Shown: one piece after another, positions 2,288 through 18,000 of the stretch
Numbering within the stretch: the stretch's first letter is position 1
Layout of the letters: each line of letters begins with the position of its first letter
Origin: a virus
Virus record (IMG/VR): IMGVR_UViG_3300031227_004885
Location: 1-34,063 of that record
Length of the DNA stretch: 34,063 nucleotides
Direction: 5' to 3' (one strand)
Made by a program: the position numbers and the translations under genes
Notes under the pieces: model-generated
Database searches by the model: none
Seen by the model: the letters and a program-made list of their open reading frames with translations, nothing else
What the model was told of the DNA's origin: nothing

Positions 2288-2613
2288 GAATTAAATATCT
2301 CCTCGATTTCAGTTTGTGAACCATGTAATGCTGGACGTAAGAATGGTTGAGCAGCACCACGTCCTTCACCAGTTTCTACAAAGTATGCATATGACTCATT
2401 TCCAGCGGCACCATTTTTTGGAGCATCAGCAATTATCTCAACACTTGATTCATGTACCTCTGCATGAATACTTCGTTTCAATCGACCAGTCTTAACTGGA
2501 ACTAATTGTTTGGCACGCTTTACTACAAGCGCACCAACTTTCTTAAGCTTAGTTTTGATTCGTTTATTGATGAGCATTTCAAACTCAACTCTATGACTTC
2601 CAGGTACTGGCAT
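2284..2613 (-). CDS. HK97 gp10-like head-tail/tail-completion protein
   Basis: A 109-residue protein with the HK97 gp10-family signature. A helical N-terminus containing VVKRAKQLVPVKTGRLKRSI corresponds to the usual A-x-PVxTGxLRxSI motif, and a later YAYFVETGEGRGAAQPFLRPAL corresponds to YAxxVExG...QPFLRPA. Family members act at the neck or tail-completion step of long-tailed phages. The stop overlaps the next gene's start by four bases (ATGA), so the two are translationally coupled. Length is normal for the family. High confidence on family, moderate on exact structural role. Confidence 0.85.
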   Translation of the reverse strand: MPVPGSHRVEFEMLINKRIKTKLKKVGALVVKRAKQLVPVKTGRLKRSIHAEVHESSVEIIADAPKNGAAGNESYAYFVETGEGRGAAQPFLRPALHGSQTEIEEIFNS

Positions 2614-2615
2614 TG

Positions 2616-2972
2616 TTAATCCCTCACAAACAATATAACTTCAATTTGAGCTGGAGTTCCTGCACCAAGAACTCTACGATGATAAACACTTTCTACATCA
2701 TACACATCGCTTAGTGTAGCATTCAATGGTGTTACCCATAAGACATCAGATATAGTAATGTCACTTGTCATGCCATATCTATGTAGTTCGGCATAAAGTT
2801 TATTAGAAGTATACTTTGATAACTTCTCATTAAGTACACGTTCTTCACCTTCAAGTCTACGAACATAACAACTGATATCTGAGATGGCTGTTGCCCATGT
2901 TTCAGTCTGACCACCTTGGCCATCTGGAACAACAGTCTTACGTCTCACTCGTAGTTTATCTGGATAGTGCAT
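2616..2972 (-). CDS. Head-tail adaptor/joining protein (SPP1 gp16-like)
   Basis: A 118-residue protein of the head-tail joining family. It begins MHYPDKLRVRRKTVVPDGQGGQTETW, which follows the family pattern of a strand, then a D-x-x-GG turn, then a conserved W. A central ISCYVRRLEGEE region and a C-terminal beta hairpin (VESVYHRRVLG...IEVILFVRD) fit the small beta-barrel fold that closes the connector after packaging. It lies between the connector gene and the gp10-like gene, the conserved order in siphophages. It is of usual length with no damage. Confidence 0.8.
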   Translation of the reverse strand: MHYPDKLRVRRKTVVPDGQGGQTETWATAISDISCYVRRLEGEERVLNEKLSKYTSNKLYAELHRYGMTSDITISDVLWVTPLNATLSDVYDVESVYHRRVLGAGTPAQIEVILFVRD

Positions 2973-3131: not shown

Positions 3132-3491
3132 TTAATACCCCAAATCTGCATTGATGCTTCTTAAGTTAATTACTTGAATTCCACTAGAACTATCATTTGC
3201 AATTAAATCATCTAGTCCAGCAAAGATACTATCCAGTGTTACATTAGTTCGATATTCAGTTTCATCATCTCCGACTTCTTTACGCCATACCATTCCAGGA
3301 TTTTCCATCATCAACTGAATCATTGTAGCAACTGGTCGTTTTAATGCTACTGGATATGATCCATCAAAATCAGTTCCAAAATATCTATCGCATGTATCTT
3401 GAGCAATGGGTATCATATCTGAAATAAACTGGTACTCAGTTGTAAGTCTAAGAATTATCTGAATTTCACTTGGTGTTGCTACAGCTGCCAT
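3132..3491 (-). CDS. Head-tail connector (gp6-like)
   Basis: A 119-residue, mostly helical protein resembling the phage gp6-like connector family: a first helix with SEIQIILRLTTEYQF, a middle helix containing PVALKRPVATMIQLMMENPG that matches the family's conserved central helix, and an EVGDDETEYR loop. Such proteins form a ring below the portal. The first 13 bases overlap the end of the zinc-ribbon gene (3479..3775). In most phages this gene follows the capsid gene directly; here the 13-kb glycan cluster lies between them. Confidence 0.7.
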   Translation of the reverse strand: MAAVATPSEIQIILRLTTEYQFISDMIPIAQDTCDRYFGTDFDGSYPVALKRPVATMIQLMMENPGMVWRKEVGDDETEYRTNVTLDSIFAGLDDLIANDSSSGIQVINLRSINADLGY

Positions 3492-3775
3492 TCTTCTAGT
3501 TCCTCCTCATCTTCTTCTATTTCTTGCATTGTCATATTGCCACAGTTAGCACATTCTAAATTGTCAAGATCATAAGCATCAGCTGGTATAATAATATTCT
3601 GTACAAAACTGCATATTCTACACTTACCAGCAAAGACTAGCAGCTCAGGTGATAAGCCTTGCTTTGCTAATTGCTCACCAAGTTCTGCAATTTGAACCAA
3701 TGTGTCTTCACATAGTGGTCTTTTCATATCTTCAAATGCATCGGCGACATCGCCACCATTACCAAATGTAATCAT
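3479..3775 (-). CDS. Small zinc-ribbon protein with acidic tail
   Basis: A 98-residue protein with two CxxC knuckles, CRIC (around residues 52-55) and CANC (around 75-78), spaced as in a zinc ribbon. It ends in a highly acidic helix (EIEEDEEELEEWQL). The family is not recognised. It sits between the last glycosyltransferase and the connector gene, overlapping the connector by 13 bases and leaving one base after the glycosyltransferase stop, so it is co-transcribed with both. It could be a neck or packaging accessory protein, or a scaffold for zinc-dependent folding; nothing in the sequence decides between these. Confidence 0.55.
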   Translation of the reverse strand: MITFGNGGDVADAFEDMKRPLCEDTLVQIAELGEQLAKQGLSPELLVFAGKCRICSFVQNIIIPADAYDLDNLECANCGNMTMQEIEEDEEELEEWQL

Positions 3776-3776
3776 A

Positions 3777-4763
3777 TTATTTACCTTTTTTACTTAATGT
3801 CAATTCATAATGATTATAAATAAATTCAGCAAAATGTGTAGCTGTAAAATTTTGTTCAATCAATTGTTGTCCTGCATTAGCAATTTGCTGATACTCTTTA
3901 ACATTGTGCATGAAGTCTGTTACTTTATGTTGGAAGTTTTCTTTGTTAACCATTACATAGTTTACACCATCTACGAATCCCATATTATCATAGTCAACAT
4001 GACGCTGAGCAAAGCAGACACATCCTGCTAATGGAATCTCCAAATACTTTGGTACAACATAATTATCAGTCAATGCAAATGCACCAGCCCATTGAGCAAT
4101 AAAACTGATAAACGAATTTCCTTGGGGTATTCTATTGTCTGACAGACAATGTTTGACATACTCAATACCACGTTGGCTGTACGCCCATGCTCTAAACTTG
4201 TATGGCCTAAATCCATCTCTACCAGCCCATAGATGACCAGTGCCTAATACTGCTGCTCTACGGTCTACCAGTTTTGTATCATTGAATCGTTGGCGTTTCG
4301 GTGCAACTGGAAACCATACTAACATATCTTCTGGGTTACCACCTTGTGCTTTAACTTCCGGAGCAATGAATTGATTATAACCATCTGTATATGGGCAAAT
4401 GATATAATCAACACCACGAGACAATGCTCGTTTAACTCTTTCCTCAGCTCCGAGCTTAAAAACAGATGTACCATCAGCATACCTACCACGCATTTCTTCT
4501 TGGTGTGGATCATTGAAATAAGTATACTTAACTGCATCATGATGAGACAACCCATCGATTTTTATTTGATGAGAACTGTGTGTATCATATATAATAATAC
4601 AGTCTGCATCGATGTCGTTCGCATTTGTATCATATGTTATATGTTGTATAGCAGTCACCCTAGGCGACTTTATCAATGCATCGAACATGTGTCGATATGT
4701 TTGCGAATAGGACGCTTGTCGTAACTTGTGGTCATCTTCATTGTATATAATTGCTAATTTCAT
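3777..4763 (-). CDS. GT4-like (CgeB-type) glycosyltransferase
   Basis: A 328-residue protein with a GT-B-like layout. The N-terminal half has a Rossmann-like start (MKLAIIYNEDD) and IIIYDTHSSHQI; the C-terminal half has the retaining GT4 end pattern: VPKYLEIPLAGCVCFA, then a short loop and GFVDGVNYVMV, then a terminal helix with FTATHFAEFIYNHY. The P-K-x-x-E...G segment usually binds the nucleotide-sugar diphosphate. It is somewhat short for a full GT4 enzyme but matches CgeB-like spore/phage glycosyltransferases. It is the last gene of the cluster, overlapping its upstream neighbour by 4 bases. Donor and acceptor cannot be told from sequence. Confidence 0.72.
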   Translation of the reverse strand: MKLAIIYNEDDHKLRQASYSQTYRHMFDALIKSPRVTAIQHITYDTNANDIDADCIIIYDTHSSHQIKIDGLSHHDAVKYTYFNDPHQEEMRGRYADGTSVFKLGAEERVKRALSRGVDYIICPYTDGYNQFIAPEVKAQGGNPEDMLVWFPVAPKRQRFNDTKLVDRRAAVLGTGHLWAGRDGFRPYKFRAWAYSQRGIEYVKHCLSDNRIPQGNSFISFIAQWAGAFALTDNYVVPKYLEIPLAGCVCFAQRHVDYDNMGFVDGVNYVMVNKENFQHKVTDFMHNVKEYQQIANAGQQLIEQNFTATHFAEFIYNHYELTLSKKGK

Positions 4764-5434
4764 GGGCGTAGTATTACTCCTATTGTTGGTCCATATTTAG
4801 AATACTTATCAGGCCGTAGATAATCAATACCATCTTCATTATCTAACCACATATAATCTGCAATAAAACTATCATCATCAGTACAGAAAGTTTTACATAC
4901 ATTAACTGATTCTTTACCCAGTTTATCAAACTCAGTTCTAGCACTATTTTCTGCCTCATGATTATACTTAGCATAAAGATCATGAATACCAATCAATACT
5001 ACATTTGGTTTTCCATAACATTGACCAGCTAAAGCCAATGCCTTGTGTGATTTAGGACCATCAATAAATATACCAATACGTTTCTCTGGAAACTGGTCAA
5101 TCATTTCTGGAATAATCTTTCGACTATCACCAGCTAGGATGGTTACATTTGGGTAAATACTTGTGTGGATTGCTGGAGCACTCTTAACATCAAGATCAAT
5201 CCCAACAATTGGAATATCTTGATCTCTAAAATGTTTTGCCCATATTGTAAGTGAACCTCCATTACAAATACCAGACTCAATAACCATATCAACACCTTGG
5301 AATTCAGCAAATGCACAAAACGCAAACCCCTCACTATTGAGTATGCCACGAGCTGGGCGTGGGCTTGGTAAAACTTTATTCATGAACTTTTTAATGTGAG
5401 ATCTGAATAAATTCTGTGGATATTCAAGTTCCAT
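4760..5434 (-). CDS. CmcI-like (cephalosporin hydroxylase family) SAM-dependent methyltransferase-fold protein
   Basis: A 224-residue Rossmann-fold protein. A motif-I-like segment, VIESGICNGGSLTIWA (residues about 51-66), carries the E-x-G...GGS pattern of the CmcI/cephalosporin hydroxylase group, which adopts the class I methyltransferase fold. It is followed by IVGIDLD (acidic residue at about 80), then AGDSR (101-105) and a GIFIDGPKSH strand (about 121-130). Proteins of this group in polysaccharide loci are usually sugar O-methyltransferases despite the family name. It overlaps the aldolase gene by 11 bases. Methylation of the cluster's sugar is the likely role, but hydroxylation or an inactive fold cannot be excluded. 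Confidence 0.65.
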   Translation of the reverse strand: MELEYPQNLFRSHIKKFMNKVLPSPRPARGILNSEGFAFCAFAEFQGVDMVIESGICNGGSLTIWAKHFRDQDIPIVGIDLDVKSAPAIHTSIYPNVTILAGDSRKIIPEMIDQFPEKRIGIFIDGPKSHKALALAGQCYGKPNVVLIGIHDLYAKYNHEAENSARTEFDKLGKESVNVCKTFCTDDDSFIADYMWLDNEDGIDYLRPDKYSKYGPTIGVILRP

Positions 5435-6173
5435 ATTCCATAACCTTTCTAGCCATCTCTCTTAAAAATATTGTGTCAGTTCCCAGTGCTAACATTTTAT
5501 ACCCCTCACGGACTGCATTAATAATGCTCTGCTCAGACACATCAACTATATGCATACCCGGTGGTTTACTATGTTCATGGCAGACATCTAAGTATCTGTC
5601 AATCATTTTCTTAAATAATAGTGGATCCATGTTAATATCAATAGACCCACGTAAATCTAGTGGTCCGATGAATGTAGCATCTACACCATCTATTCTGAGA
5701 ATTGCATCTAAATTATTCAAAGCATCAACATGTTCAATCTGCATAATGATAGCAGTAGACTCAGTGCTATGTTCACACCAGTCTTCAAAGTATTGACCAT
5801 AGTGATTATTACGACAGTAACCAAAGCTACGTTTACCAACTGGTGGTAGTCTGAGTGCGTCAACAATAGCTTGGGCTTCTTCTGCAGTTTGTATATCTGG
5901 CACGATAATACCTTTGAACCCCATATCCAAGTAATGTGATATGTGTGTAAGTGATTTTGATGGGAGTCTTACAACAGGTGTCATATAATACTTTTCAATG
6001 ATTGGGATAAGGTTAACTAGTGTTTCCTTATTAAACACACCATGTTGTAGATCTAAGCATATCCAGTCAAATCCAGCATTACCAAATATTTCTACTATAC
6101 CTGGATGTGCAAGTTGTACCCAACCTCCACGTGCTACTTCATTACTATTCAATTTATCTTTAAGTAAGTTCAT
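5424..6173 (-). CDS. HpcH/HpaI family class II aldolase
   Basis: A 249-residue protein of normal family length. Conserved elements: GFDWICLDLQHG (residues 34-45), VVRLP with the catalytic Arg at about 69, MQIEH with the metal-ligand Glu at 147, and DATFIGPLDLRGS with the second ligand Asp at 173. The family makes or cleaves 2-keto-3-deoxy acids from pyruvate and an aldehyde with a divalent metal. All expected active-site residues are present. Its neighbours include a CMP-Kdo synthetase-like enzyme and a D-2-hydroxyacid dehydrogenase, which fits a role in making or remodelling a 2-keto-3-deoxy sugar acid rather than aromatic catabolism, where the family is better known. The substrate is inferred, not seen. 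It overlaps both neighbours by 11-14 bases. Confidence 0.85.
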   Translation of the reverse strand: MNLLKDKLNSNEVARGGWVQLAHPGIVEIFGNAGFDWICLDLQHGVFNKETLVNLIPIIEKYYMTPVVRLPSKSLTHISHYLDMGFKGIIVPDIQTAEEAQAIVDALRLPPVGKRSFGYCRNNHYGQYFEDWCEHSTESTAIIMQIEHVDALNNLDAILRIDGVDATFIGPLDLRGSIDINMDPLLFKKMIDRYLDVCHEHSKPPGMHIVDVSEQSIINAVREGYKMLALGTDTIFLREMARKVMEYGT

Positions 6174-7422
6174 GTCTATTCCATTTCAATACAAATTGTT
6201 TAAGTTTATTTCTTTCAGATCTTAACTGTTCTTTGGTCCTATCAAAATATTCCATGTTAGGCAACCAATCTAACTCTTCATCAATATTACCAACTGAGTG
6301 TTGGTATCTACCGAAGTCAACATCAATTTGACTTATGTTATACTTTTTTGGATTTAACCAAATGTCAGTTCCAGGGTATGGAACTAATGTAAATAAGCTT
6401 ACATAATCTGGTTTAGTTTCAAAGATAAAATCCATTGTTTGTTGAACGATTGACTTAGTCTCAAATGGTAAACCATAAATTAAATATAGCTTAACTTTTA
6501 TTCCATAGCTTTTAATTTTTTTGATTGCAAGTTTTGCCATTTCTACGGTTTGATTTTTTTGTATCTTTTTTAATGTAATATCACTTACCGACTCAACTCC
6601 TAAATCAACAGTAGAGCAGTGACTTTTAATTAACTGATTTAAAACTTCATCAGTAATGGCATCAACTCTAGTATTACAAGTCCAGGAAATATCCAATTGA
6701 CTGAGAATATCTGCAAAATCTTTAAACCTAGATTTATTTAAAGTAAATATATCATCTACAAATTTAAAGTGATTAATACCAAATTCATTTTTAAGATAGT
6801 TAATTTCTTTTACCACATTTGCAATACTTCTAAATTGTACTTTCCTACCCCATATAGTATTTGATGCACAGAATGAACATTTGTATGGGCAACCACGGGA
6901 AGTAATAATTGAACTAGACCTAGTCCCCATATTGCACACATCATATGGTATTCGATTAAGAATGTTACGGGGTGGTATTGGGATATTATTTATGTCACTA
7001 TGGTCAGCATAAAATACTCCACCACTTCTAGTGCTACAGTAATCATCAATCACATTTTTAATTGCAGTTTCACCCGGGCCTACAATGACTGCATCAAATG
7101 AATTGAGTGATTCTTTTGGTAAAGCACTGGCATGAGGTCCACCAAGAATAGTATATGATGGACTAACTTGTTGTGCATATTTGATTACTTGCTTAATATG
7201 AATTGTCGATGCATAGAACCCGTATATATCAGCTTGGGGTAAGACAGCATCAATGGTCATATCAACCATCTCAACTGTAATACCCATCTGAACTAGAACA
7301 CCTTCGATGTACATCAAACCCAATGGTTCAGATGCTAATGGTGACATTAAAAACTTTTGAGATGGGCTAACTAATACCACCTTTATATTTTTATTCCTAT
7401 AACTCATTTTGTTTGTACTCAT
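6160..7422 (-). CDS. B12-binding-domain radical SAM enzyme
   Basis: A 420-residue protein. Residues about 13-135 form the cobalamin-binding-like domain, with SEPLGLMYIEGVL near the start, TILGGPHASALP at 91-102 and AVIVGPGETA at 111-120. The DxHxxG cobalt-ligating motif is absent, as is normal for this radical SAM class. The radical SAM core starts near residue 168, with CPYKCSFC at 178-185 supplying the three [4Fe-4S] cysteines. Family members carry out C- or P-methylation, ring contraction and other radical chemistry in natural-product and lipid pathways. The ATG at 7422 lies within the epimerase gene (26-base overlap); a second ATG at 7407 is possible and neither has a clear ribosome binding site. 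The gene looks more AT-rich than the head genes, suggesting recent acquisition. Confidence 0.85.
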   Translation of the reverse strand: MSTNKMSYRNKNIKVVLVSPSQKFLMSPLASEPLGLMYIEGVLVQMGITVEMVDMTIDAVLPQADIYGFYASTIHIKQVIKYAQQVSPSYTILGGPHASALPKESLNSFDAVIVGPGETAIKNVIDDYCSTRSGGVFYADHSDINNIPIPPRNILNRIPYDVCNMGTRSSSIITSRGCPYKCSFCASNTIWGRKVQFRSIANVVKEINYLKNEFGINHFKFVDDIFTLNKSRFKDFADILSQLDISWTCNTRVDAITDEVLNQLIKSHCSTVDLGVESVSDITLKKIQKNQTVEMAKLAIKKIKSYGIKVKLYLIYGLPFETKSIVQQTMDFIFETKPDYVSLFTLVPYPGTDIWLNPKKYNISQIDVDFGRYQHSVGNIDEELDWLPNMEYFDRTKEQLRSERNKLKQFVLKWNRHELT

Positions 7423-8095
7423 CTAAATATTCATAACTTGTTCTTGGAGTAAAAAATGTTAATAGTTTTTCAATATCAACATGGTACTCTTCATGTATAT
7501 CACCATGATTTTCAATTGGTTTATCAAATAGCTTACTTATTGCATCTACTGAGATTGGCTCACTTGCTCCAACATTAATCACTTTATACTTCACAGTATC
7601 ATCATCAATCAGTTTTGTAATTATCATAGCTAAAGCATGAGTTGTTATAAAGTTATATTCTGAAAGTAAATCATTATAGACATATAAACTTTTACAAATA
7701 TCATAAACTACATTCTTCTTTAATCCTGGCCCAATTAATCCCGCGGGTTTTAAAATGTAAGAATTTGGATATGCCTTCAGAATGCAGTCTATAGTTAACT
7801 GCTTAATTTGGCCATACTGTGATGTGTCACCTGCATTAATAGTTGAGACATGAATTAGCTTATTAAATTTTAACTCTTTAATTAAGCGTAGTATAACCGC
7901 TTCAGTAAACATCGCCGGTCCAGGTTGGACATTTGTTAAGTACTTTAGTGATACTCCACCACAATTAACTACAACATCAAACTCATTATCATCTGGTACA
8001 TCATGACCTATTCCAATAACCGTGTGACTATGCTTTAACCAGTTAAACACAGTCTTGCCAACAAAACCTGTATATCCAATGATTCCTATTTTCAT
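7397..8095 (-). CDS. NAD-dependent epimerase/dehydratase-like short-chain enzyme
   Basis: A 232-residue extended-SDR-like protein. The N-terminal MKIGIIGYTGFVGKTV carries the GxxGFVG dinucleotide-binding motif at residues 7-13. A conserved Ser region (HVSTINAG, about 98-105) and YGQIK (about 109-113) supply the S...YxxxK-type catalytic set, with K one position closer than in the textbook spacing. A PAGLIGPG segment follows. It is shorter than full-length sugar epimerases (about 310 residues) and closer to dTDP-4-dehydrorhamnose-reductase-like small SDRs seen in O-antigen loci. Role: reduction or epimerisation of a nucleotide sugar or sugar acid. It is separated by 8 bases from the radical SAM gene upstream. 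Confidence 0.75.
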   Translation of the reverse strand: MKIGIIGYTGFVGKTVFNWLKHSHTVIGIGHDVPDDNEFDVVVNCGGVSLKYLTNVQPGPAMFTEAVILRLIKELKFNKLIHVSTINAGDTSQYGQIKQLTIDCILKAYPNSYILKPAGLIGPGLKKNVVYDICKSLYVYNDLLSEYNFITTHALAMIITKLIDDDTVKYKVINVGASEPISVDAISKLFDKPIENHGDIHEEYHVDIEKLLTFFTPRTSYEYLDEYKQNEL

Positions 8096-8103
8096 GATTG
8101 CTC

Positions 8104-9204
8104 CTATGGAAAAAATCTACACATTGAATCTTTCATAAACACTTGCTCAATGACTTCATTGTATGGTCCAAAGGTACATCGTGGACATTTCTGAATATTA
8201 ATATTTTTGAGCATCTGTTTATGTCTATCTGTGTTCCAGTGTTTTAAAACCTCATGGGGGTCTGGGTCATGTTGACATAATATTAAATCTTTTCTGCCAC
8301 GAATATCAAAGCATAAATGACAGTTGCCATCAGCTCCAAATGTTAGAATTAATGGTGCAGCCCAACACCTTGAAAAATTTACTTTCCGTTCAAAGGTTGG
8401 TGTGAACTTATGTCTAATGCCAAAGAACCTAAAGTTTTCATCTTCTAATTTCATTGCCTCTTCAATCTGATTATCAATCGTTTCAAGAAGAGATTCAAAG
8501 TCACCCCGCTCTGTTAATTTTGTCTTTGTTAAATTATCCCAGCCAACTGGTCGCAGATGAAAATCTTTTACTCCAACTTGTTTTGCAATCTTAGCGGCCG
8601 TTAAAATTTCATTTGCATTTAGGGGATGTAGCAAATACTTATAACATAGGTCACAATTACTATCATTACGTTTGATAGCACTAGCAATCAATTCAAAGTT
8701 ATTTAAAACTTCATCAAACATTTTGGGATTGTTAATTCCCTTTGCTTTCATGTAAGTATCAGAAGTGCCAGCATCCATTGAAAATCCAACCCACCGGCAT
8801 GTCTTGCTAATAATATCAGCAATGCCACTTGTCACTAATGAGCCATTTGTAATTAGACCTGCTTCAAGGTTATTTTCTTTTAGCTTCAATAAAAAATCTG
8901 GTGTTGCTTTGTTCATTAATGGTTCACCACCACCAGCAACACATGTTGAGTGCACACCCCACTCTGCATAAAAATCTGCAAGATTAAATAGTTGATGTCG
9001 AGAAATATCTTTTCGCTCTCCACCCATATAGTCAAGAGCATTACACCATGGGCAATCAAAATTACATTTATTAGTTGGATCAGTATCAACAGTCACAGGT
9101 GGTAAAAAATTCTGGTTTGCAATACCCTCTAACCATTCACGCCACATTAATACTTTGGCACTATTAAATGGATTCCATTGATTTTTCCATTCATGTGAGT
9201 TCAT
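8104..9204 (-). CDS. Radical SAM enzyme with SPASM-like C-terminal cysteines
   Basis: A 366-residue protein. CNFDCPWC (residues 47-54) is the CxxxCxxC cluster-binding motif, preceded by VDTDPTNK and followed by GGGEPLMN (the GGE motif that binds SAM). The C-terminal 90 residues carry Cys in FSRCWAAP, GNCHLCFD, LILCQHD, KCPRC and a final DSMCRFF, enough for one or two auxiliary Fe-S clusters as in SPASM/twitch proteins. Such enzymes in surface-polysaccharide clusters often catalyse dehydrogenation, epimerisation or C-C bond formation. It overlaps the dehydrogenase gene upstream by 14 bases. Substrate unknown. Confidence 0.85.
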   Translation of the reverse strand: MNSHEWKNQWNPFNSAKVLMWREWLEGIANQNFLPPVTVDTDPTNKCNFDCPWCNALDYMGGERKDISRHQLFNLADFYAEWGVHSTCVAGGGEPLMNKATPDFLLKLKENNLEAGLITNGSLVTSGIADIISKTCRWVGFSMDAGTSDTYMKAKGINNPKMFDEVLNNFELIASAIKRNDSNCDLCYKYLLHPLNANEILTAAKIAKQVGVKDFHLRPVGWDNLTKTKLTERGDFESLLETIDNQIEEAMKLEDENFRFFGIRHKFTPTFERKVNFSRCWAAPLILTFGADGNCHLCFDIRGRKDLILCQHDPDPHEVLKHWNTDRHKQMLKNINIQKCPRCTFGPYNEVIEQVFMKDSMCRFFP

Positions 9205-10171
9205 TTATAATCTCCTGTGTTACAATGTCTTTTGGTGTTTTACCATTTAGCATAGCGATACAGTTTTCTGTAGCTTCTATTTCCATTCTACTTCTACCAG
9301 ATGATGTCATACTTGCCATATGAGATGTCAAGATAACATTATCAAAATCTTTTAATTGTCCATTATATGGTTCATTCTCAAATACGTCAATTGCTGCACC
9401 ACCAAGATGTTGGTTTTCTAATGACGATAGTAATGCTAGCTCTTGAATGATTGCCCCACGTGCTGTATTTACAATGAATGCACCATGCTTCATCATACCC
9501 AATTGTTTGTAGTCAATACAATGGTAGTTCTTTTGATTCAATGGAATGTGTATCGTTAGTAAGTCACATTCTTTTAGCAATTCATTTTCTGATACTTTTA
9601 AAATATTAAACCCTTCTATAGTTTTATCTTTAACATTTGGGTCTGTGTACATTATATTAGGTGTAAGTCCCAAGAGTTTAGTTGCAACCCGTGAGCCAAT
9701 ACGCCCCATACCCATAACACCAATTGTAACATCTTTTACAAGTTTACCAAGCACTCTACCCCAGCACCCTGAGTGCATGTCAGTATTGGATGTATGAATG
9801 CCACGAAGCAAACTCAGTATCAAACCAATTGTTAATTCTGCAACACTATCAGCTGGAGCTTCAGGTGTGTATGCCACTTTAATGTTTTTATCATTGCAGG
9901 CTTGGAAGGGAATTCCATCGAGTCCAACACCAACACGAGAAATACATTTAAGGTTTGGTACATCCATAAAGAAATGAGCTTTATACTTTTCAGTGCCAGC
10001 AATAATAGCATCTGGATTTATTGCCAACATAATATCAATCAACTCAACTTGAGTTAATTTTCTTGCATATGGATTATAGTATACATCATATCCTGCAGCT
10101 TTCAATAAATCTATTGGCTGCTTATCATTCATACCAAATGGATATGTTGTAATTAAAACTTTCTTAACCAT
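9191..10171 (-). CDS. D-isomer-specific 2-hydroxyacid dehydrogenase (phosphoglycerate dehydrogenase-like)
   Basis: A 326-residue protein of full family length. GVMGMGRIGS (residues 151-160) is the NAD-binding GxGxxG fingerprint, with an acidic residue after the second strand (YTDPN, about 175-179). Catalytic Arg238 (NTARG), Glu267 (FENEP) and His284 (LTSHM) are all present. SRVGVGLDGI (78-87) is the usual substrate-loop region. The family interconverts 2-hydroxy and 2-keto acids. It lies between the CMP-Kdo synthetase-like gene (8-base overlap) and a radical SAM gene, so it likely supplies or reduces a 2-keto acid intermediate of the sugar pathway. A house-keeping serine-biosynthesis role is unlikely because the long regulatory C-terminus of SerA is missing. 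Confidence 0.88.
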   Translation of the reverse strand: MVKKVLITTYPFGMNDKQPIDLLKAAGYDVYYNPYARKLTQVELIDIMLAINPDAIIAGTEKYKAHFFMDVPNLKCISRVGVGLDGIPFQACNDKNIKVAYTPEAPADSVAELTIGLILSLLRGIHTSNTDMHSGCWGRVLGKLVKDVTIGVMGMGRIGSRVATKLLGLTPNIMYTDPNVKDKTIEGFNILKVSENELLKECDLLTIHIPLNQKNYHCIDYKQLGMMKHGAFIVNTARGAIIQELALLSSLENQHLGGAAIDVFENEPYNGQLKDFDNVILTSHMASMTSSGRSRMEIEATENCIAMLNGKTPKDIVTQEIINELT

Positions 10172-10904
10172 TTTCTTGTTCCTCTAAGATTTCAATGATA
10201 CGATCTCGGTCCGATGGTGTATCAACACTTCTGCTATCATGTGGAGTGTATCTCATAAAGACATCTACATCATTTTCAATTAAACGGTTTAATCCAATAC
10301 CCTCCATGTTCTCTAGGTATGTTGGTTGAAGTGCATTGTATAATCTCAGCATCTCACCCGTGAACATATACACACCTATTTGTTTATAAATGATTTTCTT
10401 TGGGTTACCGCGTTTTGTATAATTGCCATGATAAGGTATTGAGTATCGTGAGTAGTACAATGCACGTTGGTTCTGAGACAATGTAACTTTAACAGAATTA
10501 ACTTCATACATATCATCTATCGACTCAGTATAGAAGTTTACTATTGATGGTGATAGATCTACATTAAGAGTTTCCACATTAAACAATGGCTCATCACCCT
10601 GGATGACAATGTACTTCTCACAACCACGACCATCTGACTCTAAAATTTTCACAACTTCAGCTGCTCTATCAAGACAATCAGAATGAAGTTCACTAGTCAT
10701 AATACAATCAATTCCCAATTCAGAACATGCTTGATGAATCTTCTGACTATCGGTAGCAACATATACAGCCTTCCACTTATCCCATTTCATTGCAGACTCA
10801 TAAACCCACTGAATCATGGGCTTGCCTTTAATGTCACATAATGGTTTTCCCTCAAATCTTGTTGACCCATATCGTGCTGGAATAATACCAATGTACTTAT
10901 TCAT
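10164..10904 (-). CDS. CMP-Kdo synthetase-like cytidylyltransferase (copy 1)
   Basis: A 246-residue protein of the KdsB family (3-deoxy-manno-octulosonate cytidylyltransferase), of normal length. Conserved segments: IIPARYGSTRFEGKPL (7-22, CTP-binding loop), CLDRAAEV (77-84), IVIQGDEPLF (99-108; Asp104 is a Mg ligand), YYSRYSIPY, IGVYMFT and the C-terminal SVDTPSDRDR with the second Mg-ligand Asp. The enzyme couples CTP to a 2-keto-3-deoxy sugar acid to give a CMP-sugar donor. All key residues are kept, so it is probably active. The family points to Kdo or a related ulosonic acid, but specificity cannot be read from sequence. The next gene upstream is the FkbM-type methyltransferase. Confidence 0.85.
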   Translation of the reverse strand: MNKYIGIIPARYGSTRFEGKPLCDIKGKPMIQWVYESAMKWDKWKAVYVATDSQKIHQACSELGIDCIMTSELHSDCLDRAAEVVKILESDGRGCEKYIVIQGDEPLFNVETLNVDLSPSIVNFYTESIDDMYEVNSVKVTLSQNQRALYYSRYSIPYHGNYTKRGNPKKIIYKQIGVYMFTGEMLRLYNALQPTYLENMEGIGLNRLIENDVDVFMRYTPHDSRSVDTPSDRDRIIEILEEQENG

Positions 10905-10913
10905 AATCTTCTC

Positions 10914-11576
10914 CTAAATGATATTTTTAATTAGTGGATTTTTTGATGTGTACAATGAGTAAATGGTATGAAACTTTCCCATTTTGGTTGGATGAAGTTT
11001 TAAGTACAGATAATTATTGAAGACAGGTGAGAATTTTTGACGTAGTCTGGCAATTCGTACAAATCCATACTTAGCTAAGTACTGGTCTGTGTCTTTAAGC
11101 AGTGCAATGTTTTTGTATAGTGGTTTTAAATGTTGCTCGGTGTGAATTCCAAGAAGGTTTGGAAGGTGCCTCCCCATACTTTTTATTATGTTCAAGTCAG
11201 CGCCTTGTGCATCAATTTTAAGAACATCAAAATCAATACCCATACCATCAATGATAGTGTCTAATCTTTCACATTGAATCTCCTTGATTTCTTTCAAATC
11301 AAACCTACCTAAATCAGAATTATCATTGAGGATCTCGTTTGCGTTTTCAGCAATTTGAAATAGCGATGAGCATCTTTCTTTTTTGTAAATATAAAAAGGT
11401 CGTGGACCAGGAGTATCAAACACTGCTACATTTTTTATACATATGTGTGGAAGATTAACTTCTTTCATTCGTGGTTCAAATGCAAGTAAATTGCTTATTA
11501 AGTTTGTATTGTCAGACCATGGTTTAGAAAGTCCACCTGCAAAACCTACATCAATAAGATTAATTTGCTGGTTCAT
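10914..11576 (-). CDS. FkbM-family methyltransferase
   Basis: A 220-residue class I SAM-dependent methyltransferase of the FkbM type. The motif-I region is INLIDVGFAGGLSKPW (5-20). KNVAVFDTPG, the CSSLF segment, CERLDTIID and the diagnostic DVLKIDAQGADLNII follow in family order. FkbM enzymes O-methylate sugars and polyketides. Motif I lacks the usual G-x-G continuation (V-G-F-A-G-G), a mild deviation. It ends in a long basic tail. Start ATG at 11576 overlaps the GT2 stop by four bases (ATGA). Probably decorates the glycan made by the cluster. Confidence 0.8.
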   Translation of the reverse strand: MNQQINLIDVGFAGGLSKPWSDNTNLISNLLAFEPRMKEVNLPHICIKNVAVFDTPGPRPFYIYKKERCSSLFQIAENANEILNDNSDLGRFDLKEIKEIQCERLDTIIDGMGIDFDVLKIDAQGADLNIIKSMGRHLPNLLGIHTEQHLKPLYKNIALLKDTDQYLAKYGFVRIARLRQKFSPVFNNYLYLKLHPTKMGKFHTIYSLYTSKNPLIKNII

Positions 11577-12508
11577 AACACCACTTCCTTTAGATTATAG
11601 TTTGTTAAACCCCAGTCACTACCATTTTCATGGGTAAATTTCATAGTAATATTACACATTATTCTGGGTTTAATTAGTTTATTTATAACTTTTTCCTTTT
11701 TAAATTTTCTCATATTCCCATATGTATCATAACCACTATAAAGAAATCTATTCTTATGTAGTTGATGATAAAAATTTAATGGTCCATCAAGAATATGCTG
11801 CTTAAAATTAACATTTAATCTTTCTAAAAATTTACCTTCAGTTTTAAATCCATCAGATCGTATTTCTGGGTAGCCACGTGTTGTTGAGAATACTTGTTGT
11901 GAGGCCAAGACAAAATCACCCGCTGCTTTCTTATGTAATATATATGGACTAACTATATTACCTCTACGAGTTGAGTTATCTTTACAGAACTTTAAGGTTT
12001 CAGTTGTGTCTAAACTTAATGGTATCATTTCGACCATATCAAATCGATAAGCTCGATAAAATAAGTTATCCTTAAGTTGTTGCTGACCTAAAAATGCCAT
12101 CAATGGTTGACTAAAAATAATATCTGCATTTGTTGATAAGATAAACCTACCATGGGCATTTCTCATTCCAACATTCTGTGCAATAGCTGGATAGAAATCA
12201 ATTTCTTTAGCATTCAATGCATCAAACACTGTAGGTATAATCTGTTTATGGACATCTTGGTCAACTGTAATTATTCTTACTTTTGATTTTAAAAATGGTG
12301 GAATGGTTAATACATCACATAACTTTGGAGCATCTGGAGATGGATTCCATTCAACAATAATAAGTTCTAAACTTAAATTATTCATTGATGATGAGGAAGC
12401 TAACATATCAATAGTAGTTTGAAACCTGCTTACAAAATTCTTGCCAAAGTTATCATTTCTTCCAGACATTACTATAGTAAGATATGGTTTATTCATGTTG
12501 AGTTCCAA
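11573..12508 (-). CDS. GT2-like (GT-A fold) glycosyltransferase
   Basis: A 311-residue protein with a family 2-like start, LTIVMSGRNDNFG (residues 10-22), then LELIIVEWNPSPDAP and, in place of the DxD motif, ILSTNADIIFS (around residues 138-148). N-A-D-I in place of D-x-D is seen in other phage and polysaccharide GT2-like enzymes. The C-terminus is basic and helical. The ATG at 12508 lies within the upstream gene; an ATG at 12496 (MNKPYL) is an equally good start. It lies between FkbM- and class I-type methyltransferase genes. Donor and acceptor unknown; activity likely but the DxD change makes metal use uncertain. Confidence 0.72.
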   Translation of the reverse strand: MELNMNKPYLTIVMSGRNDNFGKNFVSRFQTTIDMLASSSSMNNLSLELIIVEWNPSPDAPKLCDVLTIPPFLKSKVRIITVDQDVHKQIIPTVFDALNAKEIDFYPAIAQNVGMRNAHGRFILSTNADIIFSQPLMAFLGQQQLKDNLFYRAYRFDMVEMIPLSLDTTETLKFCKDNSTRRGNIVSPYILHKKAAGDFVLASQQVFSTTRGYPEIRSDGFKTEGKFLERLNVNFKQHILDGPLNFYHQLHKNRFLYSGYDTYGNMRKFKKEKVINKLIKPRIMCNITMKFTHENGSDWGLTNYNLKEVVL

Positions 12509-13163
12509 TGATTATTAACCTATCACCCCTAGTTGATTTATCAGAATTTAAAGATTCCTTGTATTTGTCAAATGACATTAAGCTTTGTGATTCAGCGCGG
12601 TACACTTTGATTATTTTAATCTTACCATACAGTTCAATAGTTTTAATTATCGAATAGATATTGTAGATAGTGCTCCAATATGGATTTCCAGTAGTTGTTT
12701 TTCTTCTCCATATTCTTCCATTGTCACCAGAATATTTCCATTTAAACATAGTAAAGTAAAAATACTTCGAAGCTTTAATCATACCCCTAAGTGTTAAATG
12801 TATATTGGGTGAATGCTCCAGCACGCTATCACAATATGTTAGCTCAAATGTTTTAGCAAGATAGTTTAGTTCATCCATTGAACTTTTAATACATAATATC
12901 TTTGGAAATTTTTCTTTAGCATTATCCAAGAATACATCTGAGACATCAACAATAGTATAATCAATTGGTCGCTTGGCAATTAATTTTTGATACTCAATCA
13001 ATTCACCTGGACCAACCTCTAATACTGATTTAATATTATTATCAAGTATAAAGTTTACAAACATCTCTTTAGCTACAGAATCTTTAGTTGCATTAATAAA
13101 CCCTACCTTGCCAATTTCATGATCATTCCACTTCTCATAATTATCATAGTTTTTGTTTGTCAT
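12489..13163 (-). CDS. Class I SAM-dependent methyltransferase
   Basis: A 224-residue protein. Motif I is SVLEVGPGELIEY (around residues 46-58), with an acidic post-I residue in YTIVDVSD (around 69-76) and CDSVLEHSPN (around 110-119) as the motif IV/post-IV region seen in Methyltransf_11/23 proteins. It has a Trp/Lys-rich middle (FKWKYSGDNGRIWRRK) that may contact an anionic substrate. It overlaps the GT2 gene by 20 bases and leaves one base after the DUF115-like gene. The gene looks more AT-rich than the head genes. A sugar O- or N-methyltransferase is the best guess. Confidence 0.75.
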   Translation of the reverse strand: MTNKNYDNYEKWNDHEIGKVGFINATKDSVAKEMFVNFILDNNIKSVLEVGPGELIEYQKLIAKRPIDYTIVDVSDVFLDNAKEKFPKILCIKSSMDELNYLAKTFELTYCDSVLEHSPNIHLTLRGMIKASKYFYFTMFKWKYSGDNGRIWRRKTTTGNPYWSTIYNIYSIIKTIELYGKIKIIKVYRAESQSLMSFDKYKESLNSDKSTRGDRLIIIGTQHE

Positions 13164-13164
13164 A

Positions 13165-13827
13165 TTATTTCCTTAGTATAGAACTATCATAAAATTTTTC
13201 ATACTTAGTTTCAGTAATAATTTTAAACTCTACTTTCTCTGCTATTGACTTTAGTGCATTATAAATCTCTCGATCTTTTTTAATCGAATCTTCCCATGTA
13301 TAATCATCGGTATGCCCAATACCATAACAATGTTGAGTTTTGGTTCCCCCTTCAATATCACATTTTTTATGCAGTGTAAAACCATCCATCCCAGCAATGT
13401 AAATCTTTCGAGCTCCCATCAAGTCTGCAATAGCAATTGCTAGATTTCCTGCTGTTCTAAAATATCCATACAAAGCATTGCTCATGAATTTAAACTGGAA
13501 GTTTGGTTTGTCGAAATACTTAACCTCATAGTATAGTCCATTCCACCACTTGTCAATGATGGCATGTTGAAGACCACAGCCAAAAAGCATCTTTGAATTG
13601 CCAGTAATACAGTCACCTTGGTCATTAAGCCTTTGATTGTTAGTCCATAGGTGATAGTCTGGGTCGTACAAATGGGTCATTTTATTAATGCCAATCGTTA
13701 CTACATTATTCAAATCTATAAACTCATGTATCTTATCAAGCTGTTTCTTTGACTCATTACCAGCAGCAATGATTAGTATAGTGTCATCAGTGTGAACATC
13801 AAAAAGACTATTTAGTAATTGGCTCAT
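13165..13827 (-). CDS. DUF115-like (6-hydroxymethylpterin pyrophosphokinase MptE-like) glycan-locus protein
   Basis: A 220-residue protein. The start ILIIAAGNESKKQLDKI (residues 17-33) and the later FRTAGNLAIAIADLMGARKI followed by YIAGMDGF (143-150) match the DUF115 pattern found in MptE-like and Maf-type proteins and in polysaccharide clusters, where they sit near sialyl- or pseudaminic-acid-type transfer genes. Maf proteins are needed for flagellin glycosylation with nonulosonic acids in several bacteria, an interesting parallel since this cluster also has CMP-sugar synthetase-like genes. Role here is inferred: transfer or handling of a nucleotide-linked acidic sugar. It overlaps the large fusion gene by 20 bases. 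Confidence 0.65.
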   Translation of the reverse strand: MSQLLNSLFDVHTDDTILIIAAGNESKKQLDKIHEFIDLNNVVTIGINKMTHLYDPDYHLWTNNQRLNDQGDCITGNSKMLFGCGLQHAIIDKWWNGLYYEVKYFDKPNFQFKFMSNALYGYFRTAGNLAIAIADLMGARKIYIAGMDGFTLHKKCDIEGGTKTQHCYGIGHTDDYTWEDSIKKDREIYNALKSIAEKVEFKIITETKYEKFYDSSILRK

Positions 13828-16800
13828 GTTTTCCCTTTAGTATTGGCCTACTTTCAAGCACACCTAGTTTCATTGTTTTCATACCCATTGCTATACAACA
13901 TGCAAGTCGATGATGACCATCATAAACTTCATACTCATAATTTGGATCGTCACACTTGTAAACAATTGGCAGCAGATTAACTTGACTTTCCATAATGTCT
14001 TTAGCAAGATTAAGAAACTTTTTACATTTTGCTAGAACCAGTTGTTCATTATCATTATTTAAAAGCATTTGAAATTTAAAATACTTTGATTCTTTTAAAG
14101 CTTGTCCATGTTTCAAAGCATCTAAAAACTTACAGTGAATACTATTTTCTAAAGAAAACCAGTCTTTTAAATCTGTGTCTCCATATGCAGTTTTATATTT
14201 CTCAAAGCTTACTGGAATATTTTGACAACTTAATCTTCCAATATCAACCTCAAGTACATGTGACAAAACCACAGGCTCATATCTTGTAGATGTTAGTTTA
14301 ATACCAGTCCCTAGTTTAAGAAAATGTTCTATAGTTTCAAGATTCATAGTAGTTTTTGAACTCTTTCTACCAATTAAACAATACTCAAGGTGACCCTTAG
14401 CATTAGCAATAGGTTTATTAAACAAAATCTCAAGCTCTTTAAAACCATGTAAAATTTCTTGCTCATCAACAACAACATTATGACCAAGTGTTGGAAATTT
14501 TCTAAGCGGATGATTGAAGAATAAGATACCATCTGGTTTTAATACTCTGGTTAATTCTTTTTGACCATTGGTATAATGTTCTTTCGATATTGCATGATCT
14601 AATACCTCCCATGCAAAAATGACATCAACACTATCATCTGGCAATGGGATGTTGTCAAAGTCACCTGTGATACACTCAACATCATCAGGTACGTTACCCA
14701 TCTCTTTGAACGTGTCAGCAAGTTTATCAAATAGGATTCTGCGTTTTCCGTGCTTGTAAAACTGAAGTTCACCACCCATTTTTCCACCGCCAACTTCCAA
14801 GACAATACCCGGGTCTTGCAAGACTAATGATTTTTTAGTTGCACTATCAATATCAAAAACTTTATGCAGTCTTTCTATATCATTTAGGTATGTCTCATTG
14901 TCATGTTGTGTCCAATAATCCAATTCAAATTCTGGAGTCCATTTAAACTGATCTAATGCAATACTTGCCCGGTCAACCCATCGCTTTAAAGTATTCTTGT
15001 ATATGTTAGCCATTGTTGTACATAACATTTTTGGTCTACGTGCTGAGTACTCGCCAGTTTTTAATAGGTTTTGCCATGACTTACTTTTATAATGCAAAAC
15101 ATGAGTGTCAATATTTGGTTCAATACATCTTGATTCATTAAATAGTTTACATGGAAAACCACGAAGTGTAATATCATTTAACTTCATAACACCAGCATAA
15201 TGTTTTAAATTTCTTGTGCCAAGCAAATTCCCTAATGATACTTGATCTCCACCACCCCATAGCAAGTAACCATCTCGTTTATGCAATTTACTTTTCTGCA
15301 TGTTCATAGTTGTTTTGGCCCAAAGATTTAAAAACTTTTTTGTATTCTCGGTATTTCGTGCAAGCATGATACCAGCATTTAATGGCCAATGTGGATTCTC
15401 ATCATTTGGAAGCTTATATGTATAACCAATATCAAAATCTTCTTTAAAGAATTTTCCAAGTTTCTTCACAACTAACATATCAGCATCCATCATAACTACC
15501 TTATCTACTTCAGGATGCTTATGTAATAATGCATTCCACATGATAGATTTTGCGGCAGTCTTAAACTCTTCATCATTGTCTTCGGTTTCTGGGAACTTTA
15601 ACCCTTCAATGATTACCCCAGGTAATACCTGTTGAATCTGAAAGATTATTTCATCACTAACATCATAGTAACCAAAAATAATCTTTGCTTTTCCATTGTA
15701 TGTCTCATCAATACTTTGTAATAGTGCAAACACATTGGGCATAAACTTATCACCATATGCAGCAAACATAAATGTAATATCTTCATCTAATTCATTGAGC
15801 TCTTGTAACTCAATAGTTTGATTTTCTAAAACTGACTCAAATACTTTTTTCATAGCCTCACCAGCTTGCTGCAAATTAAATTCTTTCTCGGCTAATTCTC
15901 GTGCTTCATTAATCGCAACATCCGGTTGATGTTTAATATAATTCCAACAGCTATTTATCTCCGCGGCAAATCCAGAAATATCCATCGGGTTTGCAGTCCA
16001 CTGTGTATACTTATTTCCAGTACCGGCAACTATTGGTAATCCACTTGCTAATGCTTCACGTACAACTCTAGTTGCTATCACATGTGGAGTTACTAGAATA
16101 TCTCCAGCTCTATACCTTTCGGGCATATCCGGTGACAATGTAAATACCTCACCAAGTGCTCCAGTGAGTTGCAGTCGTCTTGTAACAATATCACTAGCTC
16201 TATTCTTTTTTGAACTGTCCATTCCAAAGATATGAATCTTTGCTCCAGGACAATATTCCTCCCTAAACTTTACTGCACTAAAAAGTACATTAAATGGTGT
16301 TGTATCTTCACGCCATATATCTGCAATTAAAATATTAGGTGCACCTGATTTTTTACCAAGATTAAATGTTTTGCCTATGGGTGAGTACTCATTTAAGTTT
16401 ACCATTGAGGGTACATAGTATACTTGTTTCTTTGGAAGCAGCTTACTAAAATGAAACATGTATTCTTGCCAGAATGTTACAAATGCTTTGTACCTATCAT
16501 CATTAGCAACTTGTTCTAAGAATGAATAAACTGGAACTGTTTTATATTTTTCTAATAGAAATGAGTTTTCCGGTCGTCCATGTAAACATAATACCATGGG
16601 AATACCCAATTGCTCTATCTCATGTGGAATCAAAGAATGTCTAACTAAAATATCAGCAGTTTTGGCTTCTTCTAAACCAACTGTTTTGATTGGTCCATCG
16701 GTTGACCCAACTATAACTTTTGATTGTTTACAAGTTTGACAAGCATTACAGTCAACTAACTGAGCATCGATTCCGACTGACCTTTCTGCAATAATCAAAT

Positions 16801-16864
16801 CTTTTACAGTGGCATATTGACCAGACCTTCCTGGTCCAAATACCGCGAAGTGGACTACTTTCAT
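13808..16864 (-). CDS. Four-domain fusion: GT4-like + GT8 glycosyltransferase + methyltransferase + ParB-like domain
   Basis: A 1018-residue open frame, the first gene of the 13-kb cluster. Residues about 1-345: GT-B fold, GT4-like, with LCLHGRPE near 93 and the donor-binding end RVVREALASGLPIVA (266-280). Residues about 362-640: GT8-like GT-A domain with MMDADMLV (458-465; DxD at 460-462), LNAGIML (495-501) and HVLHYKSKSW (588-597). Residues about 645-835: class I methyltransferase with VLEVGGGKMGG (688-698), GDFDNIPLPDDSVDVIF (734-750) and ELTRVLKPDGILFFNHP. Residues about 865-1018: ParB/Srx-like domain with EVYDGHHRLACCIAMG (979-994), the classic DGHHR motif. Start ATG at 16864 directly follows the capsid terminator. 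It probably builds and methylates a short glycan; the ParB-like end may bind or hydrolyse a nucleotide, or be non-catalytic. Such a fusion is unusual. Confidence 0.82.
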   Translation of the reverse strand: MKVVHFAVFGPGRSGQYATVKDLIIAERSVGIDAQLVDCNACQTCKQSKVIVGSTDGPIKTVGLEEAKTADILVRHSLIPHEIEQLGIPMVLCLHGRPENSFLLEKYKTVPVYSFLEQVANDDRYKAFVTFWQEYMFHFSKLLPKKQVYYVPSMVNLNEYSPIGKTFNLGKKSGAPNILIADIWREDTTPFNVLFSAVKFREEYCPGAKIHIFGMDSSKKNRASDIVTRRLQLTGALGEVFTLSPDMPERYRAGDILVTPHVIATRVVREALASGLPIVAGTGNKYTQWTANPMDISGFAAEINSCWNYIKHQPDVAINEARELAEKEFNLQQAGEAMKKVFESVLENQTIELQELNELDEDITFMFAAYGDKFMPNVFALLQSIDETYNGKAKIIFGYYDVSDEIIFQIQQVLPGVIIEGLKFPETEDNDEEFKTAAKSIMWNALLHKHPEVDKVVMMDADMLVVKKLGKFFKEDFDIGYTYKLPNDENPHWPLNAGIMLARNTENTKKFLNLWAKTTMNMQKSKLHKRDGYLLWGGGDQVSLGNLLGTRNLKHYAGVMKLNDITLRGFPCKLFNESRCIEPNIDTHVLHYKSKSWQNLLKTGEYSARRPKMLCTTMANIYKNTLKRWVDRASIALDQFKWTPEFELDYWTQHDNETYLNDIERLHKVFDIDSATKKSLVLQDPGIVLEVGGGKMGGELQFYKHGKRRILFDKLADTFKEMGNVPDDVECITGDFDNIPLPDDSVDVIFAWEVLDHAISKEHYTNGQKELTRVLKPDGILFFNHPLRKFPTLGHNVVVDEQEILHGFKELEILFNKPIANAKGHLEYCLIGRKSSKTTMNLETIEHFLKLGTGIKLTSTRYEPVVLSHVLEVDIGRLSCQNIPVSFEKYKTAYGDTDLKDWFSLENSIHCKFLDALKHGQALKESKYFKFQMLLNNDNEQLVLAKCKKFLNLAKDIMESQVNLLPIVYKCDDPNYEYEVYDGHHRLACCIAMGMKTMKLGVLESRPILKGKHEPITK

Positions 16865-16953: not shown

Positions 16954-18000
16954 CTATGCAACAGATGATACTCTACGCCACTGTGCCTCATTGAGGTAAG
17001 CTCCATAACGGCCCCAACCAACAACAGTTTCAGCAAACGAAAGAATATCAGTCTCAGCCATAAGCGTGAGATCCATTCTATTACCAATCTTATTCTTTCG
17101 GCCAGGTACACAGAGATAACCCAGAGGAATTGTTTCGCCTGAATCACCAACCCATGTAGATCCACCAGTAGCTGCACCAGCAGTTGCCCAGTCAATATAC
17201 GATGTAAAGTATGGAGTAATGTTATAGTTAACAGTTACGCCACCAAGATACGCTGTACCCTGTGCTCTACCAACATTCAATGCCTGCTCTACACGGCCTT
17301 TATTAACCATGGGACAGTACATTACCATTGGCGTACCAGCAGTCACGCCAAAACCGGAATCACGAAGTGAGTTAACCAGCTCAGTTGCACCGAGACTGAT
17401 AGTGTTCCTATCGGTCTCTAACTGAGTTGTACCAATAGCATCATAAGGAACATTAAATGCAGCAGTATTGGTCAAAGACTGAATCATGTCATAAAACAGA
17501 ACAGCTTTTTCCTCATACCATTTACGTCTGAACTCAAGAGCATTGTCTTCGATGGTCCACCATTCGCCATCATCAAACCATGTCTTCATCCAGTCAAGAC
17601 CACCACCGTAGAGGTTCAACCCAACGGTAATTTCACCACCAGAGATGGCATAAATCTTGGCTTTTTGACCATCACGAACACGGCCAAAGGTTAAACCAGA
17701 CTGAGCACTTCTAACAGTAAAGCTAGACGTTTTAGTGCTCGTCAAATCAAGGACATCAAATGCAGCTTCATATGCAGTGTCCAGTTCTGCAACATCAATA
17801 TGAAACTTGTCAACAATTTCTAGTACTGAATCTGGAAAATTCGCAGCAGATGTGAATTCTCGGATTCCCGCTTTACGAAGCATGTCAGCCGCAACAGAAC
17901 TTTGATTATAGTGATGCTGAATCGCACCAATAAAAGCGTTACGCCCTTTCTTCGAGTCAAGTCTTATCCGACTATAGTCAGAGAAAATTTTACCATTCAT
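16954..18000 (-). CDS. Major capsid protein (HK97 fold likely)
   Basis: A 348-residue protein in the expected place after protease, scaffold and decoration genes. The N-terminal helix-rich arm (NAFIGAIQHHYNQSS, then ADMLRKAGIREF) leads into beta-rich sequence, a long helix around NALEFRRKWYEEKAVLFYDMI (the spine-helix position), and a C-terminal half with PMVMYCPMVNKGRVEQAL and PLGYLCVPGRK, like other phage capsid proteins of this size. Start ATG at 18000 has TTAGGAG upstream. Downstream is a strong terminator. Base composition is more GC-rich and codon use looks optimised compared with the glycan cluster, as expected for an abundant protein. The HK97 fold is inferred from context. Confidence 0.85.
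   Translation of the reverse strand: MNGKIFSDYSRIRLDSKKGRNAFIGAIQHHYNQSSVAADMLRKAGIREFTSAANFPDSVLEIVDKFHIDVAELDTAYEAAFDVLDLTSTKTSSFTVRSAQSGLTFGRVRDGQKAKIYAISGGEITVGLNLYGGGLDWMKTWFDDGEWWTIEDNALEFRRKWYEEKAVLFYDMIQSLTNTAAFNVPYDAIGTTQLETDRNTISLGATELVNSLRDSGFGVTAGTPMVMYCPMVNKGRVEQALNVGRAQGTAYLGGVTVNYNITPYFTSYIDWATAGAATGGSTWVGDSGETIPLGYLCVPGRKNKIGNRMDLTLMAETDILSFAETVVGWGRYGAYLNEAQWRRVSSVA

Follow-up and report, generated by a model that had tools for sequence, protein, structure and literature searches.

Organisation of the glycan gene module

The DNA analysed here (the window; 34,063 bases) is an IMG/VR virus record and represents a genome fragment. Positions 3777-16864 are filled by 13 minus-strand ORFs, which overlap by 4-26 nt at nine of their 12 junctions, the remaining three being spaced by 1-9 nt. 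The structural genes of this strand are arranged in the order: terminase (Terminase_3), portal-position gene, collar-domain fibre gene, capsid-position gene, the 13-gene module and connector, followed by head-closure and HK97-gp10-like genes and then by the tail genes. The module appears to be co-transcribed with the head genes; promoter and terminator scans of the sequence gave results at chance level. The features are listed below (G001 is a 92-kb contig found by a capsid search; L numbers denote other contigs and loci).

2284-2613, minus strand: HK97-gp10-like gene, downstream flank
2616-2972, minus strand: head-closure gene, downstream flank
3132-3491, minus strand: gp6-like connector, downstream border (from position; 50-51% identity in relatives; no significant Pfam match)
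3777-4763, minus strand: GT1_2-family glycosyltransferase (PF13524; 53-56% identity in relatives)
4760-5434, minus strand: CmcI-like methyltransferase (PF04989, 16.4 bits, cut-off 23.2; phrog_21658, methyltransferase)
5424-6173, minus strand: HpcH/HpaI aldolase (PF03328, E 3e-27, 95.8 bits, cut-off 25)
6160-7422, minus strand: B12-binding-domain radical SAM protein (PF04055 and PF02310; nearest PDB chain AprD4)
7397-8095, minus strand: short SDR/epimerase-like protein (PF01370, 16 bits, cut-off 20.9)
8104-9204, minus strand: radical SAM protein (PF04055 and the motif CX3CX2C)
9191-10171, minus strand: D-2-hydroxyacid (PGDH-type) dehydrogenase (PF02826/PF00389)
10164-10904, minus strand: KdsB-family cytidylyltransferase (PF02348, CTP_transf_3; NCBIfam NF003952)
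10914-11576, minus strand: FkbM methyltransferase (PF05050)
11573-12508, minus strand: GT2-like protein, 311 aa (read as GT2 by eye; no Pfam match)
12489-13163, minus strand: class-I methyltransferase (PF08241; in L026 and L030, its relatives lie next to or not far from the MptE-like gene)
13165-13827, minus strand: MptE-like/DUF115-like protein, candidate transferase (PF01973, below cut-off)
13808-16864, minus strand: 1018-aa fusion of GT4-like, GT8/77-like and methyltransferase domains with a C-terminal ParB-like DGHHR domain (Pfam; GT4 part below cut-off)
16954-18000, minus strand: capsid-position gene, upstream border (synteny; 67% identity to G001, 29% to the capsid-position ORF of phage MACPNOA1)
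21028-21708, minus strand: second KdsB-like protein, outside the module (NF003952, 156 bits, under the cut-off of 193)
21702-22289, minus strand: small GT2-like protein, outside the module (NCBIfam GT2-type matches under cut-off)

The ORFs, Pfam families and flanking genes confirm the claim of an earlier note on this DNA that a 13-gene glycan cluster lies between capsid and connector genes. Most of its family assignments also stand, with scores above the Pfam cut-offs, but those of the epimerase, the DUF115/MptE-like and CmcI-like proteins and the GT4 part of the fusion fall below them, and the GT2-like protein has no match. The capsid-position gene, placed as the putative capsid gene by synteny, matches phrog_24071 (a phrog of unknown function) and has no Pfam match. 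A fold claim for its product was dropped, the AF2 model (pLDDT 35) being too poor.

Three ORFs encode (i) a KdsB-family cytidylyltransferase, (ii) a dehydrogenase and (iii) an aldolase. The first scores 216 bits against NF003952 (cut-off 193), which places it in this curated subfamily, and 136 bits, under the cut-off of 155, against the equivalog TIGR00466; it shares 57-69% identity with the KdsBs of other phages, and its substrate may be an ulosonate other than Kdo. The GxGxxG motif and candidate catalytic residues R238, E267 and H284 of the dehydrogenase are invariant across five phages. Residues H44, R69, E147 and D173 of the aldolase (candidate catalytic His/Arg/Glu/Asp, whose roles we presume by analogy with HpaI) are invariant across six, as fits a class II enzyme. 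Its assignment as an equivalog of HpaI, GarL or rhamnonate aldolase was rejected (142, 121 and 105 bits against cut-offs of 369, 407 and 441, respectively).

A 3-kb block (radical SAM, SDR and B12 radical SAM genes) separates the dehydrogenase gene of the window from that of the aldolase; a radical SAM gene at this position was found in the window only. The encoded protein (8104-9204) shows 25% identity to the radical SAM protein of G001 and 29% to that of the bacterial locus L053. The SDR is too diverged to assign, and the best NCBIfam match of the B12-type radical SAM protein is PhpK, far under the cut-off. A radical SAM protein likewise adjoins an SDR-type reductase in the AprD4/AprD3 sugar deoxygenation pair (PMC5461906). 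This reading of the window genes was not adopted and is kept as a lead only (NCBIfam AprD4, 107 bits, cut-off 500).

The glycosyltransferases are phage-encoded, as judged by Pfam, which is a feature of virion glycosylation systems. In the 1018-aa fusion, the nucleotide-sugar transferase and methyltransferase domains score above the Pfam cut-offs, and the N-terminal GT4-like part reaches 22.4 bits (cut-off 27). A single-sequence scan with this protein found no relative; an alignment scan retrieved G001 (47% identity, the C-terminal domain being there a separate gene) and, from three further phage contigs (L011-L013), GT4 homologues that stand alone. The ParB-like domain, so read by eye from a (D)GHHR-type motif and with no Pfam match, recurs in phage glycan clusters, either fused or stand-alone (window 13808-14270, G001 36794-37276, L026 5776-6351, L030 3370-3903).

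The MptE-like protein, with relatives in G001, L026 and L030, scores 22.6 bits against PF01973, below the gathering cut-off of 34.6 for the Maf/DUF115 family. It gave no convincing match to solved structures by sequence, and a Foldseek search with its AF2 model (pLDDT 49, pTM 0.52; of too low quality for a fold assignment) returned none at E <= 0.001. The GT2-like protein shares 34% identity with the product of an L026 gene placed in the same gene order, and the neighbourhood of the CmcI-like gene, beside the aldolase gene, is conserved in relatives.

The KdsB-like/GT2 pair at 21028-22289 lies beyond the region described in the earlier note, where it was overlooked. It adjoins a fibre gene with collagen-like and collar domains (22535-25150), and no match to the pair was found in G001.

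Relatives of the module in phages and bacteria

In G001, the capsid gene is followed by genes for the homologous fusion, the ParB-like domain, an APS-kinase-like protein, a radical SAM protein, the MptE-like protein, methyltransferases and FkbM, then by those for the dehydrogenase, aldolase, CmcI-like protein and GT1_2, and finally by the connector. Searches with GT1_2 yielded L014, which is near-identical to the window (identical over most genes), and four more contigs (L015-L018), which run into the module from the connector side with the same gene order. All six relatives found that reach the capsid/connector junction (G001, L014, L015-L018) carry the module there. Their proteins, those of L014 excepted, share roughly 30-56% identity with those of the window, and the core gene order is kept at 38-56% identity. 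Immediately ahead of the dehydrogenase gene, the window and L016, L017 and L018 carry KdsB; in those relatives in which both are complete, the dehydrogenase gene overlaps that of the aldolase. KdsB was not detected in the 92-kb record of G001 (contigs in IMG/VR can be incomplete).

A distant isolate, Microcystis phage MACPNOA1, carries at the capsid position a gene whose product is 29% identical to the window capsid over 281 residues. Small connector-type genes begin 33 bases after it, with no glycan genes between them, which constitutes an "empty site". Since the capsid-position gene leads there straight into connector-type genes, the module either represents an insertion at the capsid/connector junction or was lost in the MACPNOA1 lineage. 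The gene-order comparison proposed in the earlier note thus shows a glycan operon that is kept at this junction in related phages and is absent from the distant one. The genes are not scattered independently among related phages, an arrangement which that note had named as evidence against its reading: the KdsB, dehydrogenase and aldolase genes stay together, bacteria and an unrelated jumbo phage included.

Alignment scans with KdsB reached large unrelated phage contigs. One of them, L030 (548 kb), contains consecutive genes for a methyltransferase, a sulfotransferase, an MptE-like protein, KdsB, dehydrogenase, aldolase and HAD; the KdsB, dehydrogenase and aldolase share 67%, 47% and 41% identity, respectively, with those of the window. 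In L028, KdsB adjoins an aldolase gene and has NanE and NeuB genes in its vicinity, and L027 contains NeuB, UDP-GlcNAc 2-epimerase, KdsB (69%) and dehydrogenase (47%) genes in one cluster; KdsB is thus accompanied in both contigs by genes of nonulosonate type (NeuB, NanE, UDP-GlcNAc 2-epimerase).

In a set of 398 genomes from a single bacterial phylum, the top matches to the aldolase and to the dehydrogenase were located near each other in L050, L051, L055 and L056. The gene order is KdsB, aldolase, dehydrogenase, SDR and HAD in L051, near an O-antigen ligase gene, and KdsB, oxidoreductase, SIS, dehydrogenase and aldolase in L055 and L056; the L050 counterpart lies near a polysaccharide flippase gene. 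The series SIS, aldolase, HAD and KdsB presumably resembles the Kdo pathway, with the aldolase standing for KdsA. Two further bacterial loci, in which the "-like" names were read from sequence, contain (i) B12 radical SAM, dehydrogenase, SDR-like, HAD-like, cytidylyltransferase and FkbM-like genes (L052) and (ii) dehydrogenase, cytidylyltransferase-like, radical SAM/SPASM, HAD-like and SDR-like genes (L053). From these loci, the families of the window module share one metabolic neighbourhood. The KdsB/dehydrogenase/aldolase trio is evidently no random assortment, as its genes are found side by side in L030 and again in bacterial clusters for surface polysaccharides, there often together with SDR, HAD and SIS genes. 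The core enzyme families are likewise clustered in the bacterial surface-polysaccharide cassette (L051, L055 and L056), which differs in that its KdsB is 32-33% identical and its genes can adjoin a ligase or flippase gene.

A genome scan with the aldolase gave three loci: two matched at 32-36%, the third over 30 residues. The cassette was absent from the two loci inspected. A search for the closest KdsB at E <= 1e-55 found none in 696 bacterial genomes, a set that included no positive control; the leave-one-out scores of the phage KdsBs lie far above this threshold. Each left out of the profile in turn, six phage KdsBs scored 363-439 bits, as against at most 150 for two other bacterial KdsBs; the phage enzymes form a group apart from the bacterial ones.

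In an unrooted dehydrogenase tree, the window, L030 and L027 are split from G001, L016 and L018 with a support of 100, and the window enzyme shares 47% identity with jumbo-phage enzymes versus 38-39% with those of its own family. The tree and the identities, which place it nearer to jumbo phages, suggest that the dehydrogenase may have been exchanged between them and the window lineage; the KdsB and aldolase trees had weak support. Where testable, the module is under purifying selection: dN/dS was 0.045-0.23 in the computable comparisons (L016 versus L018 and L016 versus L017), several synonymous distances being saturated or large. Between L016 and L018, the aldolase is 97% identical and the flanking GT1_2 77% with saturated synonymous sites. 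This probably reflects recent recombination within the module.

Several features of individual clusters were also observed. HNH-type endonuclease-like genes interrupt the module and neighbouring genes of G001 (22000-36000); none were seen in the window module. The APS-kinase-like gene of the G001 module (L003:14178-14603) and the sulfotransferase gene of the L030 cassette (L030:4568-5314) indicate that some of these glycans may be sulfated. G001 also contains an adenylosuccinate-synthetase-like, perhaps PurZ-like, gene (L008:15426-16580) and, elsewhere, DNA polymerase A and RtcB genes, and is a possible candidate for 2-aminoadenine DNA.

Proposed pathway and acceptor

That the module genes belong to a common pathway is well supported by the comparative data; its exact product and acceptor we infer, as we do the order of the reactions and the role of the MptE-like protein. 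The pathway may be divided into several steps: (i) the HpcH/HpaI aldolase would use a pyruvate-type donor to build a 2-keto sugar acid, in the place that KdsA holds in Kdo synthesis, (ii) the 2-hydroxyacid dehydrogenase would set the oxidation state of the keto/hydroxy-acid precursor, (iii) the KdsB-family enzyme would put CMP on the product, (iv) GT1_2, the GT2-like protein, both glycosyltransferase domains of the fusion and possibly the MptE-like protein, a potential user of the CMP-sugar, would assemble an oligosaccharide, and (v) the FkbM, CmcI-like and class-I methyltransferases would methylate it. In the window phage, the radical SAM/SDR block might edit a sugar further. The acceptor would most likely be a virion protein encoded in the same operon. 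We consider it marginally probable that such a soluble phage pathway leads through a CMP-activated ulosonic-type sugar to a methylated oligosaccharide, for which virion proteins are the likeliest carriers. The modified acidic sugar proposed in the earlier note is plausible, because the KdsB-family CMP-transferase sits with the aldolase and the dehydrogenase; G001, with no detectable KdsB, indicates that CMP activation may not be universal in the family.

The 13 module proteins of the window contain no TM-like segment (maximum 19-residue hydropathy, 1.35). The peak for the G001 module (1.68) lies in the MptE-like protein, where the homologous window stretch reaches 1.28; it was not accepted as a membrane segment, being a conserved stretch in a soluble-type domain. 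Neither module encodes a membrane flippase, polymerase or lipid-carrier transferase, the proteins expected for envelope modification. The lack of membrane proteins and the placement between head genes favour soluble acceptors, most simply virion proteins. These same features, with a position inside the head-gene operon and not in an early or lysogenic-conversion region, make the main alternative rather doubtful, namely that the module alters the LPS, capsule or some other surface glycan of the host envelope through host lipid carriers and flippases, and so blocks superinfection or changes the surface late in infection. The lack of membrane proteins is compatible with an envelope target, because a sugar made by the phage could be handled by flippases or ligases of the host; moreover, the bacterial counterparts belong to surface-polysaccharide clusters, and in two cases the cluster contains a flippase or ligase gene. 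Comparable clusters of cyanophages and jumbo phages, likewise comprising glycosyltransferases and sugar enzymes, have been interpreted as modifiers of the host surface, i.e. LPS or capsule (PMC7824862). The text of that paper does not mention aldolase, KdsB, FkbM or NeuB, and the window cluster differs in being fixed in a head operon.

It is improbable that the module is a mixed bag of auxiliary metabolic genes with no shared product. Relatives do not have its radical SAM/SDR block at this position, G001 lacks KdsB, and the grouping of its dehydrogenase with jumbo phages might reflect piecemeal exchange, but bacteria and an unrelated phage also have the core trio together, with a core order maintained despite divergence and under purifying selection. 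A non-glycan product (a small molecule, a DNA modification or a modified amino acid) is very improbable: B12-type radical SAM proteins occur in secondary metabolism too, but the module combines several glycosyltransferase domains with FkbM and a KdsB-family enzyme, and none of the 13 genes is nucleobase-directed.

Decoration of the virion, the reading that we prefer, has parallels in known systems. The A064R protein of chlorovirus PBCV-1 combines two glycosyltransferase domains with a methyltransferase and builds a capsid glycan (PMC9614988), a separate methyltransferase, A061L, being likewise present. PBCV-1 differs in that it is a eukaryotic virus; the window fusion adds a fourth, ParB-like domain and the module adds a CMP-sugar cassette. 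A PDB sequence search with the fusion retrieved methyltransferase chains only and thus revealed no link to the A064R GT domain of known structure. Mycobacteriophage capsids have been reported to be glycosylated (Freeman et al. 2023, as cited in PMC11256854). Che8-type phages are likewise tailed and encode glycosyltransferases, and glycans are reported on their capsid protein, but the glycosyltransferase genes are placed near the genome 3' end, a location described for Maravista, a related phage. In contrast, the 13-gene module of the window lies between capsid and connector and comprises methyltransferases as well as a CMP-sugar cassette.

Virion glycosylation and the synthesis of glycans by phage-encoded enzymes have both been described before. 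A dedicated CMP-sugar cassette that is fixed within a head operon represents a new variation on these, and no description of this phage cassette was found in the open-access literature. We tentatively propose, as a possible scenario, that in one lineage of tailed phages an aldolase-based, Kdo-analogue CMP-ulosonic cassette became fixed in the head operon, where it yields a methylated acidic glycan on capsid or fibres, and that the cassette has been exchanged with jumbo phages. Phage particles are usually regarded as unglycosylated. If the module decorates virions, these phages would produce their own nucleotide sugar within the head-building operon instead of borrowing it from the host. It would then be testable how common virion glycosylation is in uncultured phages and against what it protects, and how glycan cassettes pass among bacteria, jumbo phages and smaller phages. 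More examples could be spotted through the capsid/connector junction, whose conservation offers a clear handle.

Two minor observations concern the downstream flank. A single ORF of the window (1379-2287) fuses an Lcl_C (DUF1566) domain to a tail-terminator-like domain, and its G001 homologue consists of the terminator part alone (133 aa). The zinc-ribbon-like protein encoded between connector and module (3479-3775) resembles, by eye, a 97-aa protein of L002 (420-713), and since the L002 gene is located upstream of the terminase gene, this small gene appears to be mobile.
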